A DNA stretch of 39,097 nucleotides from Gemmatimonadaceae bacterium (GTDB taxonomy: Bacteria; Gemmatimonadota; Gemmatimonadetes; Gemmatimonadales; Gemmatimonadaceae), in assembly GCA_017881685.1 (NCBI GenBank), contig JADGQR010000104.1:1-39097 (forward strand), read 5' to 3'. Positions 3,568 through 37,331 of the stretch are shown piece by piece (positions within the stretch are counted from its first letter, which is position 1; the number at the start of each line of letters is the position of its first letter). The notes under the pieces were generated by a model. That model worked only from the letters and a program-made list of their open reading frames with translations. It ran no database searches and had not been told where the DNA came from. Both the position numbers and the translations under genes were made by a program.

Positions 3568-4899
3568 ATGACGATCGCTTCTGCAACTTCTCAGTTGGCC
3601 CGACCGCTCTTCGCCGACCGTGTGGCGATGATCGACACCGAAAACGCGTTCAAGGTCGGGCCCTTCATCAAGGAAGTCGAAGACGCAGGCCACAAAGTGG
3701 TGAAGTGCAACCTCGGCGAGCCGGATTTTCCTCTTCCCCGTCATATCGCCGAGGAGGTCAAGCGTCAGATCGACAACGACATGACGCACTACAACGACCC
3801 TCAGGGAATCCTGCCGCTTCGACAGGCAATCGCCCGAACGATGGGGGAAGACCGCGGACTCGATATCAATCCCAACCGCGTCGTTGTTTTTCCCGGCGCC
3901 AAGCCACCGATCGGATTCTCACAGCAGACATACTGCAATGCAGGCGACGAAGTCATCTATCCAAGCCCGGGATTCCCGATTTACGAATCGTTCGTTCGCT
4001 ACATCGGCGCTTCGGCTGTCCCGCTGCACCTCGAAGAAAAGTCGGGCTTCAGCTTTTCAGGTGCCGACCTCGCACGTCTCATCACAGATCGCACAAAGCT
4101 CATCTATCTGAACTTTCCCTCGAATCCAACCGGCGGCGTGGCCTCCCGTGCCGAGCTCGAGGACATCGCTCGTGTGATTCTTTCGAATACTTCGCCAGAA
4201 GTCAGGGTGTACTCGGACGAAGTCTACGAGCGGATCCTCTTTGACGGCGAAAAGCACGTCTCGATCGCATCCCTTCCCGGAATGGAAGAGCGAACGATTC
4301 TTGTCTCCGGAGTCTCGAAGTCCTATTCGTGGACAGGGGGAAGAGTCGGCTGGGCGGTATTCCCGACCGCCGAAGAAGCAGCGGTGTTCAAGAATCTGAA
4401 CATCAACTACTTCTCGTGCATTCCCGCCTACAACCAGATGGGCGCGAAGGTCGCGCTCGAGTCTCCCGAAAGCGCTATCTCCACTGGCGAAATGGTGAGT
4501 GCGTTCTCGAAGCGGCGTGACTTCGTCGTCGATGCGCTCAACTCGATCGAAGGCATCCACTGCCAGAAGCCGAAAGGTGCTTTCTACGTCTTCCCGAACA
4601 TCGGAGGCGTCTGCGAGAACATCGGTGCCGTCGAGGCGTATGCCGCGCTGCCGCCATCGGTACGCGATCTGACAACACCATCGACGCTTTTTCAGCTCTT
4701 CCTTCTCTTCAGGCATCACGTTGCAACGCTCGACAGAAAATCATTCGGACGAATTGGAAGCGAGGGAAAGCATTACCTGCGGCTTTCGATCGCGACATCC
4801 AAAGAGCAGCTCGAGCTGGGGATGCAGCGCATCGCCGATGCAAGCCGCGACGTCGACGGATTCCGCACGTACGTGAGAGAAGGAAAACACCTCTACTAA
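3568..4899 (+). CDS. PLP-dependent aminotransferase, class I/II fold
   Basis: Contains NLGEPDF, YNDPQGILPLRQAIA, NFPSNPTGG, YSDEVYE and SGVSKSYSWTGGRVGWA (PLP-lysine region). RBS-like gaggggag before the ATG. Confidence 0.93.
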   Translation: MTIASATSQLARPLFADRVAMIDTENAFKVGPFIKEVEDAGHKVVKCNLGEPDFPLPRHIAEEVKRQIDNDMTHYNDPQGILPLRQAIARTMGEDRGLDINPNRVVVFPGAKPPIGFSQQTYCNAGDEVIYPSPGFPIYESFVRYIGASAVPLHLEEKSGFSFSGADLARLITDRTKLIYLNFPSNPTGGVASRAELEDIARVILSNTSPEVRVYSDEVYERILFDGEKHVSIASLPGMEERTILVSGVSKSYSWTGGRVGWAVFPTAEEAAVFKNLNINYFSCIPAYNQMGAKVALESPESAISTGEMVSAFSKRRDFVVDALNSIEGIHCQKPKGAFYVFPNIGGVCENIGAVEAYAALPPSVRDLTTPSTLFQLFLLFRHHVATLDRKSFGRIGSEGKHYLRLSIATSKEQLELGMQRIADASRDVDGFRTYVREGKHLY

Positions 4900-4917
4900 C
4901 GCCAAGAGGGCATTGCT

Positions 4918-7326
4918 TTGACAATCGCATTGGAACCGACCTACAGTCCCCAGGCTGCTGCGCCAACTTCACGTTTTGGCTCGCGACGCGGGGTGTGGAT
5001 CGACATCAGTGAAGAGCCCTCGCTCCCGCTGAGCGCGCAGGAGATCGAGGCATTCGAGACGCTGGATCTGATTTACAGATCGGTCTGCGCGATGGTCTAC
5101 AACTACGTACCGACGTCGGGTCATCCAGGCGGCTCGGTGTCCTCCGGCCGATTCGTATCGGCGCTTCTCTTCGACGCGATGGACTACGACTTCTCGCGTC
5201 CGCTGAGCGAAGAAGCAGACATCATCTCCTACGCTGCCGGACACAAGGCACTCGGCCTCTATTCAATGTGGGCGCTTCGAAACGAGATTGTTCGGCTCGT
5301 CGCACCGGAGATGCTTCCAACCGACATCGCATTTCAGCTTCGCCTCGAGGATCTGTTGGGTTTCAGGCGAAATCCCGCCGGACCTGCGCCGCTTGCCGCT
5401 GCATTCAAGTCGAAAGCGCTCGACGGTCACCCCACTCCCGCCACTCCGTTCGTGCGCCTTTCGACGGGAGCATCGGGAGTCGGCCTCGCTTCGTCGATCG
5501 GACTGGCGATCGCAGCGGCTGACACGTTCCACGAGGATTCGCCGCGCGTTCACATAGTTGAAGGAGAGGGTGGACTTACCCCTGGTCGCGTTGCCGAAGC
5601 GTTAGCGGCGGCCGGCACTGCTTCGTTGAAAAACGTCTTCGTCCATCTCGACTGGAATCAGTCATCGATCGACTCGGATCACGTCACGCGAGAGGGCGAC
5701 GTTCCGGGTGACTACGTGCAGTGGACGCCGTGCGAGCTTTTCTACCTCCACGACTGGAATGTCATCTACGTTCCCGACGGCACGAGCTTCCAGCAGATAG
5801 TCGGGGCGCAGAGACGGGCTATGAGCCTCGACAATGGGCAGCCGACCGCAATCGTGTACCGAACGACGAAAGGCTGGCGCTACGGAATCGAAGGCCGTGC
5901 ATCTCACGGCGCCGGCCACAAGCTCTGTGCAGCGGGATTCCAGCAGGCGCTGGAGCCTCTCGTGTCGAAGACTGGGAGACAGCTTCCGATGTGCGAGCCC
6001 GATCATCAGCGATGCGCCGGCGGATCGACCTCCGAGATCGTCGAGCAGTGTTTCTGGGAATCCCTTTCGACAGTGAGGCACGTTCTTGAGGCGAATCACC
6101 TTGTCGTGACACGCATGTCGGAGCGCATCATCGCTTCACGCGAGCGTCTGTACAAGCGTCAGCGACAGGTCGCACCGAGCTCGCCGCGTGTCGCGCGAGT
6201 GTTCGCTGCTGCGCGATCGCGAACGACGCCAGAGTCGCTCGTGCTTTCGGCAGGCGCGAACATAACGCTGCGCGGCCAGCTCGGAAAAGTTCTCGGATAT
6301 CTGAACAAGGAGAGCAACGGCGCGCTTCTCATCTCCGCTGCAGACCTGCTTGGCTCGACAAGCATCAATGAAGCTGTCGCTGGATTTCCTGGCGGCTACT
6401 TCAACATGCAATCGAACCCCGGATCGAGAACTCTCTCAACCGGCGGAATCTGCGAAGACGCGATGTCGGGAATTCTTTCGGGAATTTCCAGCTTCGGTCA
6501 CCACATCGGAGCAGGGTCTTCGTACGCAGCATTCCTCGCACCACTCGGACACATCGCGGCCCGCCTCCACGCAATTGGAAATCAGGCGCGCCAGTCACTC
6601 GACCCAAGCCCGTACCGGCCATTCATTCTCGTATGTGGTCATGCGGGACTGAAGACCGGTGAAGATGGACCCACTCATGCTGATCCTCAGCCGCTGCAGC
6701 TCTTGCAGGAAAACTTCCCGAAGGGCGCGATGGTCACACTCACGCCGTGGGATCCGCAGGAAATATGGCCGCTGATGGCAGCCGCCCTCCGGGCGTCGCC
6801 CGCGATCATCGCGCCGTTCGTCAGTCGTCCATCTGAGACTGTTCCCGACAGAAAGGCCCTCGGCTTCGCTCCGGCGTCTGAAGCAGCGCGTGGTGTCTAT
6901 AAGCTCCGCAGTGCCGCCGGAAGGAGTGACGGTGCGGTCGTCATTCAGGAATCAGGCGTCGCGTATGCATTCGTCGAGCAGACTCTTCCGTTGCTCGAGA
7001 GAACGGGAATCGATCTCGACGTCTACTATGTAGCGAGCGCCGAGCTGTTCGATCTCCTTCCCCAGGCGGAGCAGGACAAGATCTTCCCGGAGAGCGTTGC
7101 ACAGCGCGCGATGGGACTCACCGGCTTCACGATGCCGACGATGTACCGCTGGATCCGGTCGGATCTTGGCAGGTCGCACACGCTGCATCCTTTCTCACAC
7201 AACAAGTATCCGGGAAGCGGACCGGGCGCGCGCGTGATCTCGGAAGCGGGACTCGACGGCGATGCTCAGCTCGCCGCGATCATCGATTACGTGAACGCGC
7301 GAAAGCCGCGGGCATCGCACCACTAG
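4918..7326 (+). CDS. Transketolase-like thiamine-diphosphate enzyme (802 aa)
   Basis: TTG start 18 nt after the aminotransferase. PTSGHPGGSVSSGRF, AGHKALGLYSMWALR, TPP-like HIVEGEGGLTPGRVAEAL...LDWNQSSID, and DGPTHADPQPLQLL in the pyrimidine domain. Confidence 0.85.
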   Translation: MTIALEPTYSPQAAAPTSRFGSRRGVWIDISEEPSLPLSAQEIEAFETLDLIYRSVCAMVYNYVPTSGHPGGSVSSGRFVSALLFDAMDYDFSRPLSEEADIISYAAGHKALGLYSMWALRNEIVRLVAPEMLPTDIAFQLRLEDLLGFRRNPAGPAPLAAAFKSKALDGHPTPATPFVRLSTGASGVGLASSIGLAIAAADTFHEDSPRVHIVEGEGGLTPGRVAEALAAAGTASLKNVFVHLDWNQSSIDSDHVTREGDVPGDYVQWTPCELFYLHDWNVIYVPDGTSFQQIVGAQRRAMSLDNGQPTAIVYRTTKGWRYGIEGRASHGAGHKLCAAGFQQALEPLVSKTGRQLPMCEPDHQRCAGGSTSEIVEQCFWESLSTVRHVLEANHLVVTRMSERIIASRERLYKRQRQVAPSSPRVARVFAAARSRTTPESLVLSAGANITLRGQLGKVLGYLNKESNGALLISAADLLGSTSINEAVAGFPGGYFNMQSNPGSRTLSTGGICEDAMSGILSGISSFGHHIGAGSSYAAFLAPLGHIAARLHAIGNQARQSLDPSPYRPFILVCGHAGLKTGEDGPTHADPQPLQLLQENFPKGAMVTLTPWDPQEIWPLMAAALRASPAIIAPFVSRPSETVPDRKALGFAPASEAARGVYKLRSAAGRSDGAVVIQESGVAYAFVEQTLPLLERTGIDLDVYYVASAELFDLLPQAEQDKIFPESVAQRAMGLTGFTMPTMYRWIRSDLGRSHTLHPFSHNKYPGSGPGARVISEAGLDGDAQLAAIIDYVNARKPRASHH

Positions 7327-34086: not shown

Positions 34087-34348
34087 ACTTCCTCCTGTTG
34101 CAGTAGGCCGGGCACCGGGCCCGTGAGCGCAAAGGGGCTGCAGTTAACGTGCCGACCCCTTCTTTAAAGAGGCTTAAACAGGTGCTGCAGGTCATAGTCG
34201 CATTCGGCCCTTGTAAAACGTTGGCCTGGTACTATCGTCGATATGTGGCCAGGCGGCTTTTCGGAGTCGCTCGAGAAGTTCGCGTCTACATGGCTTCACT
34301 CATACGCTCATGTGCAATGAGCGGGACTTTCTTCGCCGGAGAATGTTT

Positions 34349-35554
34349 ATGTTGCGCTCCCCCCGCACGCTCGTGAGCATCGCAGCCCTGGTTGGCATCG
34401 CTGCATGCTCGCCCGACAACACGCCAACAAGTCCGAACGTGGCGGTAAGTAGTGATCTAAGCACGGGCCAGACAATGCGCTTTCTTCACGCGAGGGTATG
34501 TCCGAGCGCAGAACCCGGTACCGCTCGCTGCCACTCCCTGGTGCGGATCGACAACGCAGCCAACCCGTTGGCGTCAAGCGGCCCAACTGGCTTGAATCCG
34601 GCCGACCTGGCGTCCGCATACAAGCTTTCTACGAGCGGCGGCGCCGGCCAGACCATCGCTATCGTCGACGCATATGATGATGCCAATGCCGAGAGCGACC
34701 TCGCTGTTTATCGCAGCCGGTTTGGACTGCCCGCATGCACAACTGCCAACGGCTGCTTCCGCAAGGTCAACCAAAACGGCGGCACGAGCTATCCGCGCGG
34801 CGACGCGGGATGGGCTGAGGAGATCTCGCTGGATCTGGATATGGCCAGCGCTATCTGCCCCAACTGCGGCATTCTTCTCGTGGAAGCGAGTTCGAACTCG
34901 TTCGCCAATCTCGCCGCGGCGGTTGATCAGGCGGCTGCGTTGGGCGCGAACGTTATCTCCAACTCCTACGGCGGAGGCGAATACTCCGGCGAGGTGAGCG
35001 ACCAGTCGCATTTCAATCACCCAGGCGTGGCGATCACAGTTAGCTCCGGCGACAACGGGTATGGCGTGGAGTTCCCGGCAGCATCGCGGTATGTGACCGC
35101 AGTTGGTGGAACGACCCTCAGGCGGATTTCGACCGGTAGAGGGTGGAGCGAGACAGTCTGGAGCGGAGCTGGAAGCGGCTGCAGCGCATACATCACCAAG
35201 CCGAGCTGGCAGACCGACACGGGATGTGCACGACGCACTGTTGCGGACGTGTCAGCCGTCGCAGATCCAAATACGGGAGTCTCGGTTTATGACACATACC
35301 GTCTGCATCCGGGCGGATGGCTGGTCTTCGGCGGAACGAGTGTATCGGCCCCGATCATCGGCGCCGTCTACGCTCTCGCAGGCAATTCAGGCTCTATCAA
35401 CGACGCATCATTCTCGTATTCACACACTGCGTCGCTGTTCGACGTGACTTCGGGAAGCAACGGCAGCTGTGGCAGCTCGTATCTCTGCACCGCGAAATCG
35501 GGTTATGACGGTCCGACCGGCAATGGCACGCCGAACGGCAGCGGAGCTTTTTAG
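34349..35554 (+). CDS. S53 (sedolisin)-like secreted serine peptidase, predicted lipoprotein
   Basis: Lipobox-like AAC; TIAIVDAYDDANAESDLAVYRSRFGLPACTTANGCFRKVNQNGGTSYP, WAEEISLDLDMASAICP (candidate E/D), VSSGDNGYG, FGGTSVSAPIIGAVYAL (Ser). Exact start uncertain (34310-34349). Confidence 0.88.
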   Translation: MLRSPRTLVSIAALVGIAACSPDNTPTSPNVAVSSDLSTGQTMRFLHARVCPSAEPGTARCHSLVRIDNAANPLASSGPTGLNPADLASAYKLSTSGGAGQTIAIVDAYDDANAESDLAVYRSRFGLPACTTANGCFRKVNQNGGTSYPRGDAGWAEEISLDLDMASAICPNCGILLVEASSNSFANLAAAVDQAAALGANVISNSYGGGEYSGEVSDQSHFNHPGVAITVSSGDNGYGVEFPAASRYVTAVGGTTLRRISTGRGWSETVWSGAGSGCSAYITKPSWQTDTGCARRTVADVSAVADPNTGVSVYDTYRLHPGGWLVFGGTSVSAPIIGAVYALAGNSGSINDASFSYSHTASLFDVTSGSNGSCGSSYLCTAKSGYDGPTGNGTPNGSGAF

Positions 35555-35622: not shown

Positions 35623-35636
35623 CCATTATGGAAAAG

Positions 35637-35669
35637 AAAAAGGCGGGCCCCGTTGGAGCCCGCCTTTTT
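35637..35669. terminator. Bidirectional rho-independent terminator between convergent genes
   Basis: aaaaaggcgggc-cccgttgga-gcccgccttttt. Confidence 0.9.
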
Positions 35670-35688
35670 CGAGTCAGCAAATGCTGGC

Positions 35689-36714
35689 TTAGAGCTGCAT
35701 TGCGCATCCACCGCCACTGACGTTCTTCCAGTTCTGCTGCACGAGGAAGTTCTTTCCGCCCAGCGTGACGTTCCACGTGCCGTTGTACGTTCCCCAGGTC
35801 CAGGCGCACTTGTCGGCGTTCTCGTAGCCACGCGTGTCAAACCAGGCGTTGCCCATCATGTCGGTCGTGGTCTCTTCGATCTCGTGGGCCAGAACGCTGA
35901 CTTCTCCGTCTGCGCCAGGATCGTTGTTAGGCGACGGCGACCCGTTGGTGCACGAGCCGGGATACGCGTAATCGTACGGCATCGCAGCGTAGAGAGCGAC
36001 CTTCGAGCCCTGGTTCGGGACCGTTACCGTCGCATGTGTGTGATACCCGCAGTACTGAGTCCCGAAGCCGCCGCCGAGGTTGACCAGTCCAGCAGTGAAG
36101 ATCAGATAGAGCGTGCTCGGGTCGTACGTAAGCGTGCCACTGGTGAACCCTGACTGAAGCATCGCGATCATCGCAGCATCTGAAACATTTTGCGATCCAC
36201 TCGGTGCGTTCGCTCCGTTCGCCCAGAAGCCCGAATACGTGACCGAGTTCGCAATTGCGCGACCCGATCCGTCGGTATAGCTCGAGTTGATATTGAAGTA
36301 CGCCGAACCTCCGAGGCTGCGAAGGAAGTGGCCGACTAGCGAACCGTCTGAAGTGCCTGCTCCCACCGAGCCGACCGCTGGGCCTCCGATATAGATCGGA
36401 GCCGAAGCCCAATAGATGGCGACAACCTTGGTTCCCGCCTGAAGCACCGGTCCACCGTGATAGCTAATGCCAGTCCCACTTCCAGGACGATTCTTTCCCG
36501 CCTGCGACTGTGCCTCAGCCGCATTCGACTTGAGCGGCATGAAATGAACATGCGGATCATTGGCGGCATCCGGTGTAACATTCTGGGCAAGACTCGGCGC
36601 GAGGTCCACGCCACTTCCGGATGATCGGTCTACTCCAGTTGCATCGGTACATGCGGTGAAAGCGAGAATCCCGGCGGACACAGCAACGGCGGTGGACAGT
36701 CTGTTCATCGACAA
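35689..36714 (-). CDS. Secreted bacterial homologue of EXORDIUM/phosphate-induced protein 1 (PHI-1) family
   Basis: ISYHGGPVLQAGTKVVAIYWAS, SYTDGSGRAIANSVTYSG, YDPSTLYLIFTAGLVNLGGGFGTQYCGYH, MPYDYAYPGSCTNGSPSPNNDPGADGEVSVLAHEIEETTTDMMGNAWFDTRGYENADKCAWTWGTYNGTWNVTLGGKNFLVQQNWKN match the recalled motif order of the EXO/PHI-1 family. Confidence 0.75.
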   Translation of the reverse strand: MSMNRLSTAVAVSAGILAFTACTDATGVDRSSGSGVDLAPSLAQNVTPDAANDPHVHFMPLKSNAAEAQSQAGKNRPGSGTGISYHGGPVLQAGTKVVAIYWASAPIYIGGPAVGSVGAGTSDGSLVGHFLRSLGGSAYFNINSSYTDGSGRAIANSVTYSGFWANGANAPSGSQNVSDAAMIAMLQSGFTSGTLTYDPSTLYLIFTAGLVNLGGGFGTQYCGYHTHATVTVPNQGSKVALYAAMPYDYAYPGSCTNGSPSPNNDPGADGEVSVLAHEIEETTTDMMGNAWFDTRGYENADKCAWTWGTYNGTWNVTLGGKNFLVQQNWKNVSGGGCAMQL

Positions 36715-36860
36715 ATCCTTCTGATAAGTGTGGCTTCGGCTTGCGGAACCCGCTGATATTATGTCAGGGACTCATAAAAGCCATAGCGAGTTTGGACAGG
36801 CGTTTTCCGAATCACCATTTTACCGCCGCCTTTGATGGGCCGGCGATTCAAAGAGAATCC

Positions 36861-37331
36861 ATGATGTTGCTGAAAATTGCGATTGCGGTAACGACGCTTG
36901 CTTTTGCCTCACAAGGCCCCTCGCCTGTAATTACAGGCACCCATCCGGTCGCTCGTCCAGCCCGTGCCTCGGCCCACGCCAAACCGTCAAATGCCTGGAA
37001 GGGCTCGAGCGAGGACCTGTCGGTGGAGCTGCTGTTCGAGCAGGGTGTCGATTCGATCTACGCTCGCGGCACCTACACGGTCGCTCCGACCAAACGCGTC
37101 GGCTGCGGCGGTGAGACTCTTTACGAAAGCGGACGGTTCACGATGCGGGCGGCCGGCACTGAGCGCTCCTTCCGAGGAAAGCTCCTGTTCGACAGCGGCT
37201 GGACTCCACCGGTGACCGCCTCGAGGACGTCAGCAAATACGATCAAGGTGAGGATTCGGTCCGTCGATCGAGGAGCATGCGTGCTGACTCTTCACAGAGT
37301 ACCGCGAAACAAGATCCGGCCTATACACTGA
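36861..37331 (+). CDS. Hypothetical secreted protein
   Basis: MMLLKIAIAVTTLAFASQG signal peptide; beta-rich remainder with Cys. Start chosen at ATG36861 instead of 36741. Confidence 0.55.
   Translation: MMLLKIAIAVTTLAFASQGPSPVITGTHPVARPARASAHAKPSNAWKGSSEDLSVELLFEQGVDSIYARGTYTVAPTKRVGCGGETLYESGRFTMRAAGTERSFRGKLLFDSGWTPPVTASRTSANTIKVRIRSVDRGACVLTLHRVPRNKIRPIH

Follow-up and report, generated by a model that had tools for sequence, protein, structure and literature searches.

A bacterial EXORDIUM/PHI-1 (Phi_1) family protein with a conserved HExxE motif and a predicted metzincin-like fold

EXO/EXL proteins of the EXORDIUM/PHI-1 (Phi_1) family are mediators of brassinosteroid-dependent plant growth, and the seven papers found to name the Pfam family, PF04674, are plant papers as judged by their titles and abstracts. 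EXO is biologically important (PMC2661892), and the biochemical function of EXO/EXL was still called unknown in a 2026 plant paper (PMC13103426). The window analysed here (the whole stretch of Gemmatimonadaceae DNA, 39,097 nucleotides) contains a gene of this family whose product carries an HExxE motif. The locus raises the question of whether the motif marks a metal site, and whether the protein that bears it is an enzyme.

The gene, its exported product and its bacterial relatives

The open reading frame covers 341 codons on the reverse strand (35689-36714), with TTG as the listed start codon, which is counted as residue 1 throughout. An ATG at 36708, two codons past the TTG, opens the signal sequence MNRLSTAVAVSAGILAFTAC and appears from the sequence to be the likelier true start. 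With this probable start, the coding sequence of the Phi_1 lipoprotein extends over 35689..36708 on the reverse strand, as supported by the reading frame, the Pfam match and the codon-position pattern. The Sec signal sequence (36649..36708, reverse strand) was recognized by inspection as a hydrophobic stretch ending in a lipobox-like FTAC, with Cys22 as the putative lipidated residue, in agreement with the lipoprotein-type N-terminus described in the first-pass annotation. A lipobox-like motif was present in 34 of 35 Gemmatimonadota relatives. The protein is very likely exported, and its N-terminus suggests that it is probably lipid-anchored. A hairpin of 16 pairs followed by a T-run, resembling an intrinsic terminator, was found 3' of the stop codon (35636..35670, reverse strand). 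Differences from the closest relative, L030, were distributed 53/46/164 over codon positions 1, 2 and 3, a pattern indicating that the gene is real and under purifying selection. The source genome has one Phi_1 copy. L030 itself has an in-frame stop within its signal sequence, at about 4230-4330, a sign of a sequencing error or else of a broken start.

The product matched PF04674 with 47.6 bits (E 1.9e-12, cut-off 25), aligning residues 138-309 with profile positions 54-230 of 276, and it departs from the profile at both ends. This match settled the family assignment made earlier from the ordered motifs, all of which were found (YHGGPVL, CGYH, YPGSC, PNNDPGADG, AHEIEE, NAW, YENADKC and FLVQQNW). 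Membership is virtually certain, and the protein adds one more member to an established Pfam family. NCBIfam offered no usable model. The Phi_1 domain, delimited by Pfam, the alignment, AlphaFold2 and Foldseek, comprises residues 83-341 (35692..36468, reverse strand).

The first-pass annotation described the family as known mainly from plants, and its distribution does not bear out a family centred on plants. In 2009 Solibacter usitatus was the only bacterial homologue known (PMC2661892), whereas members are now found in several bacterial phyla, as judged by record titles. PF04674 was present in 25 of the 298 genomes sampled from the same phylum, in 7 of 199 from another phylum (Acidobacteria, judged by the title of one locus, L073) and in 2 of 300 from the order of Mizugakiibacter. 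A pattern-based scan of named genomes gave 264 relatives, and 79 loci were kept, with titles of Gemmatimonadota, Acidobacteria/Blastocatellia/Terriglobia, Proteobacteria, Actinomycetota, Myxococcales and Armatimonadetes; nearly all are from metagenome-assembled genomes, and their taxonomy is that of the record titles. Phi_1 relatives are thus sparse yet widespread among soil bacteria. The closest relatives of the window protein are Gemmatimonadaceae, and members from outside Gemmatimonadota fit the Pfam profile much better (up to about 127 bits, compared with about 48 for the window protein). Gemmatirosa kalamazoonensis, which has two Phi_1 genes on a 1.04 Mb plasmid (NZ_CP007130.1), and Mizugakiibacter sediminis, also a named organism with a family member, provide bacterial entry points for further work. 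A Phi_1 gene (4650-5690, 28% identity) was also found in a record of a viral collection (L109, IMGVR_UViG_3300033405_000495), next to an HNH endonuclease, a thymidylate-kinase-like gene and other PHROG-matching genes; the family may be carried by a virus here, or the contig may have been mis-sorted.

Conservation of HExxE in bacterial and plant members

Conservation was assessed in an alignment of 67 proteins, whose identity to the window protein is 29-78% and 66 of which matched PF04674 at E ≤ 0.1. The invariant residues include C222, H225, C255, H277, E278, E281, D285 and W291, together with E298, N299, D301, K302, C303, Q326, W329 and C337. The four Cys are essentially invariant across the bacterial alignment. 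In a wider sample, K302 and N299 were variable (L064, L144, L148 and L149), whereas H277, E278, E281, D285, E298, D301 and C303 were retained. Three segments stand out on the reverse strand. The first is C222-G-Y-H225 (36040..36051), with invariant Cys and His, which AlphaFold2 places at the start of strand 4. The second, H277-E278-x-x-E281 and D285 (35860..35886), lies in the second half and at the end of a long helix (core 217-235) and is the putative metal or catalytic site, as indicated by sequence, alignment and AlphaFold2. The third, E298-N299-A-D301-K302-C303 (35806..35823), was recognized in the alignment and may form the second half of this site.

HExxE was found, more often than chance would allow, in 77 of the 78 relatives from the genome scan, the exception being L103, for which just an open frame of 209 residues was read, and in 13 of 13 checked loci from other searches, some of which are the same genes seen again. 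The spacing HExxE-16-ExxD was kept in 73 of the 77. Two Gemmatimonadota paralogues, L026 and L027, no longer carry H277 and E281, and in L027 D285 and D301 are lost as well. Intact genes lie beside these HExxE-less copies: L029 is on the same contig as L026 (G224:C53), and L006 occurs with L027 in G243. The joint loss of site residues fits one functional site with degenerate duplicates, and the HExxE-less paralogues are, on their sequences, probable pseudo-enzymes.

To compare the bacterial motif with the plant-rich Pfam profile, a 152-residue C-terminal segment of the plant EXO type, composed for the purpose rather than taken from a database record, was scored against PF04674. It reached 257 bits, and it can therefore be taken as representative of the profile. 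Replacing Ser with His in the HExxE columns changed the score by +0.6 bits and Leu with Glu by -0.4, and changing Ala at the third position to Glu or to Gly gave +2.1 bits in either case. A Ser to Asp change in the D301 column gave +0.1 bits. At the first motif position His is, by our own background-corrected estimate, about half as common as Ser. In contrast, the columns of Glu298, Cys303 and Asp285/Asn are strongly constrained, a change to Trp costing about 5 to 6 bits. Since the profile is mixed at HExxE, the plant-rich Pfam family probably consists of two classes, with and without the motif, and many plant members probably lack it. On this sequence evidence HExxE appears to be a bacterial hallmark, displayed only partly by the Pfam profile. 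The columns of His225 and Glu298 are constrained in the profile where HExxE is not, and these two residues may therefore be structural. The window protein resembles plant EXORDIUM/EXL/PHI-1 proteins in scoring above the curated PF04674 cut-off, in being secreted and in its Cys and CxxH positions; it differs from them in its lipoprotein-like N-terminus and its low score, and bacterial members differ in nearly always having HExxE.

Predicted fold and the reading of the site

AlphaFold2 gave confident models for the window protein (mean pLDDT 93.6, pTM 0.92) and for a Myxococcales relative, L099 (pLDDT 91.8, pTM 0.90). The elements of the window model follow the order b-a-b-a-b-b-b-a, and HExxE falls in the second half of the last, long helix. 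Adamalysin/ADAM-type metzincins have their strands and helices arranged in this order. When the L099 model was searched against the PDB with Foldseek, each of the top 30 matches was a metzincin, and the first other protein appeared at rank 31. They comprised fragilysins, snake-venom metalloproteinases, ADAM8, 10, 17 and 22, ADAMTS4 and archaemetzincin; many of these entries represent an enzyme that is already in the list, and the 30 do not count as independent observations. The E values were 0.0029-0.24, none reaching E ≤ 0.001, with probabilities up to 0.94 and TM-scores of 0.3-0.4, and in the single-domain cases the matches covered about 175-190 columns of domains of 180-202 residues. The window protein's own model gave no significant match in the PDB, although three snake-venom metalloproteinases were among its few long, weak ones, and none among the viral models of BFVD. 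The signal of a metallopeptidase fold, which the first-pass annotation had suggested looking for, is consistent across the best matches of the L099 model and weak in the window model.

No PDB relative was found by sequence, with one short insignificant stretch at most. A profile-profile search against M54 (archaemetzincin) and reprolysin detected no homology (probability ≤ 1.2%), whereas the positive control, M54 against reprolysin, gave 89.5%. The best local alignment with reprolysins places HExxE on HExxH (P 0.046, with one Phi_1 profile), while column-shuffled profiles gave 0.18 or worse. Single-sequence comparison with M57 was uninformative, and the M57 and M43 searches yielded a single genome each. 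On the evidence of the models, a metzincin-like fold in which HExxE replaces HExxH is likely. The label metzincin was nevertheless rejected, as the HExxHxxGxxH/D consensus is absent (HExxExxxTD is found instead) and no Met downstream of the motif is conserved in the 67-protein alignment, as a Met-turn would require. Gluzincins such as thermolysin have the arrangement HExxH-19-Glu. The HExxE-16-ExxD of Phi_1 proteins is similar in spacing, but the second His is Glu, and no thermolysin-type fold was among the matches listed.

From the predicted models we propose, as a reading with about an even chance of being right, that the window protein is an exported, probably lipid-anchored Phi_1 protein in which a variant metzincin-like domain with HExxE acts as a metal-dependent hydrolase. 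The single domain would adopt an alpha/beta fold resembling that of ADAM/adamalysin enzymes, and its active-site helix would bear HExxE where theirs has HExxH. A divalent metal would be held by His277 and Glu281, joined by either Asp285 or Glu298 as a third carboxylate and/or by His225, and Glu278 would serve as the general base. The substrate would be extracellular, and the bond hydrolysed would most plausibly be a peptide or amide bond. The metal site raised as a possibility in the first-pass annotation gains support from the invariance of HExxE, Asp285, Glu298 and Asp301, from the position of HExxE, which falls on the helix bearing HExxH in metzincins if the predicted fold is right, and from the 30 metzincin matches of one model. 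A metal site in the Phi_1 domain is somewhat favoured, and hydrolase activity is at best evenly balanced.

The chief alternative keeps the fold but not the catalysis: the protein would be an extracellular pseudo-peptidase with a structural role or one of binding metal, glycan or a partner, and HExxE would be structural or calcium-binding. Plant EXO may be such a protein. Many plant members probably lack HExxE according to the profile probing, and EXO is important all the same (PMC2661892). Glu is an uncommon replacement for the second His in zinc peptidases and counts against the metal-hydrolase reading, and the lectin-like and Ig-like fusions and the co-occurrence with an NTF2-like protein described below also fit a binding role. 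However, in bacteria Glu278, a residue of the catalytic type, shows the same invariance as His277, and degenerate paralogues drop the site residues jointly, both of which are more typical of an enzyme. We consider this rival a serious possibility, though a minority one. A novel fold, whose likeness to metzincins is generic alpha/beta topology and whose HExxE is no metal site, is unlikely: the low TM-scores, the lack of any Foldseek match at E ≤ 0.001 and the missing profile-profile signal would fit it, but all 30 best PDB matches of the L099 model belong to one superfamily and to several of its peptidase families, and by element order the motif helix sits where a zincin would have it. A relationship to microbial transglutaminase through the common GW[FY]...ADK..W..G stretch, seen as a weak local PF09017 match in 5-6 members (best E 0.002) and a profile match to 1iu4 (E 0.14), is highly improbable and was rejected, because the similarity spans about 45 residues only, the column that would correspond to the catalytic His is Phe or Trp in Phi_1 proteins, and no transglutaminase was among the listed fold matches of either model. 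In the A2/A3 relatives the transglutaminase-like stretch lies in the NAW...ENADKCAW...NG region, probably by chance.

The searched literature contained no proposal that would give EXORDIUM/PHI-1 proteins a metzincin-like fold bearing HExxE, and no paper naming both EXORDIUM and HExxH. The predicted zinc-protease-like shape and the HExxE motif suggest, but do not prove, that the family arose from an enzyme, and the predicted peptidase-like fold together with the motif invariant in bacteria provides a concrete biochemical hypothesis for it. If the metal-hydrolase reading is true, an active zincin with a carboxylate for a histidine would be an uncommon form within a superfamily that has been studied in great detail. 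It is conceivable, though rather doubtful, that EXORDIUM/PHI-1 as a whole forms a branch of the metzincin-like metallohydrolases that has so far gone unnoticed, is marked by HExxE, and is both old and broadly distributed among soil bacteria. Plants would then have retained the site in some of their paralogues, and the classical EXO/EXL growth proteins, having lost it, would be pseudo-peptidases.

Neighbouring genes and domain fusions

The Phi_1 gene is directly followed by a gene of the DUF4440 (NTF2-like) family in 19 of 43 loci from outside Gemmatimonadota (L067, L071, L075, L078, L079, L083-L088, L090, L091, L094, L097, L098, L102, L106 and L108); the window has no such gene. The two genes are mostly no more than about 100 bases apart and codirectional, although they converge in L087, L088 and L098, and most of the DUF4440 products have a hydrophobic N-terminal stretch. 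This conserved gene arrangement hints at a DUF4440-Phi_1 pair, in which the adjacent NTF2-like protein is a candidate partner or inhibitor. Fusions were also found. One 873-residue protein (L100:4761-7379) combines Phi_1 with TIG, chitobiase C-terminal, DUF2341 and laminin-G-like domains, modules consistent with an extracellular role, and in L019/L064 Ig-like repeats, judged by eye, precede the Phi_1 domain.

In the window, the gene converging on the Phi_1 gene (34310..35554, forward strand) encodes a secreted peptidase of the S53 kumamolisin/sedolisin type (kumamolisin E 1.9e-18), as the first-pass annotation had noted. As a conserved partner it was rejected, for L030, the closest relative, is the only one that shares it alongside the Phi_1 gene. 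On the other side, a gene divergent from Phi_1 (36858-37331, forward strand) encodes a small secreted-looking protein, and this gene stays near Phi_1 in L030 and L031 despite altered gene order.
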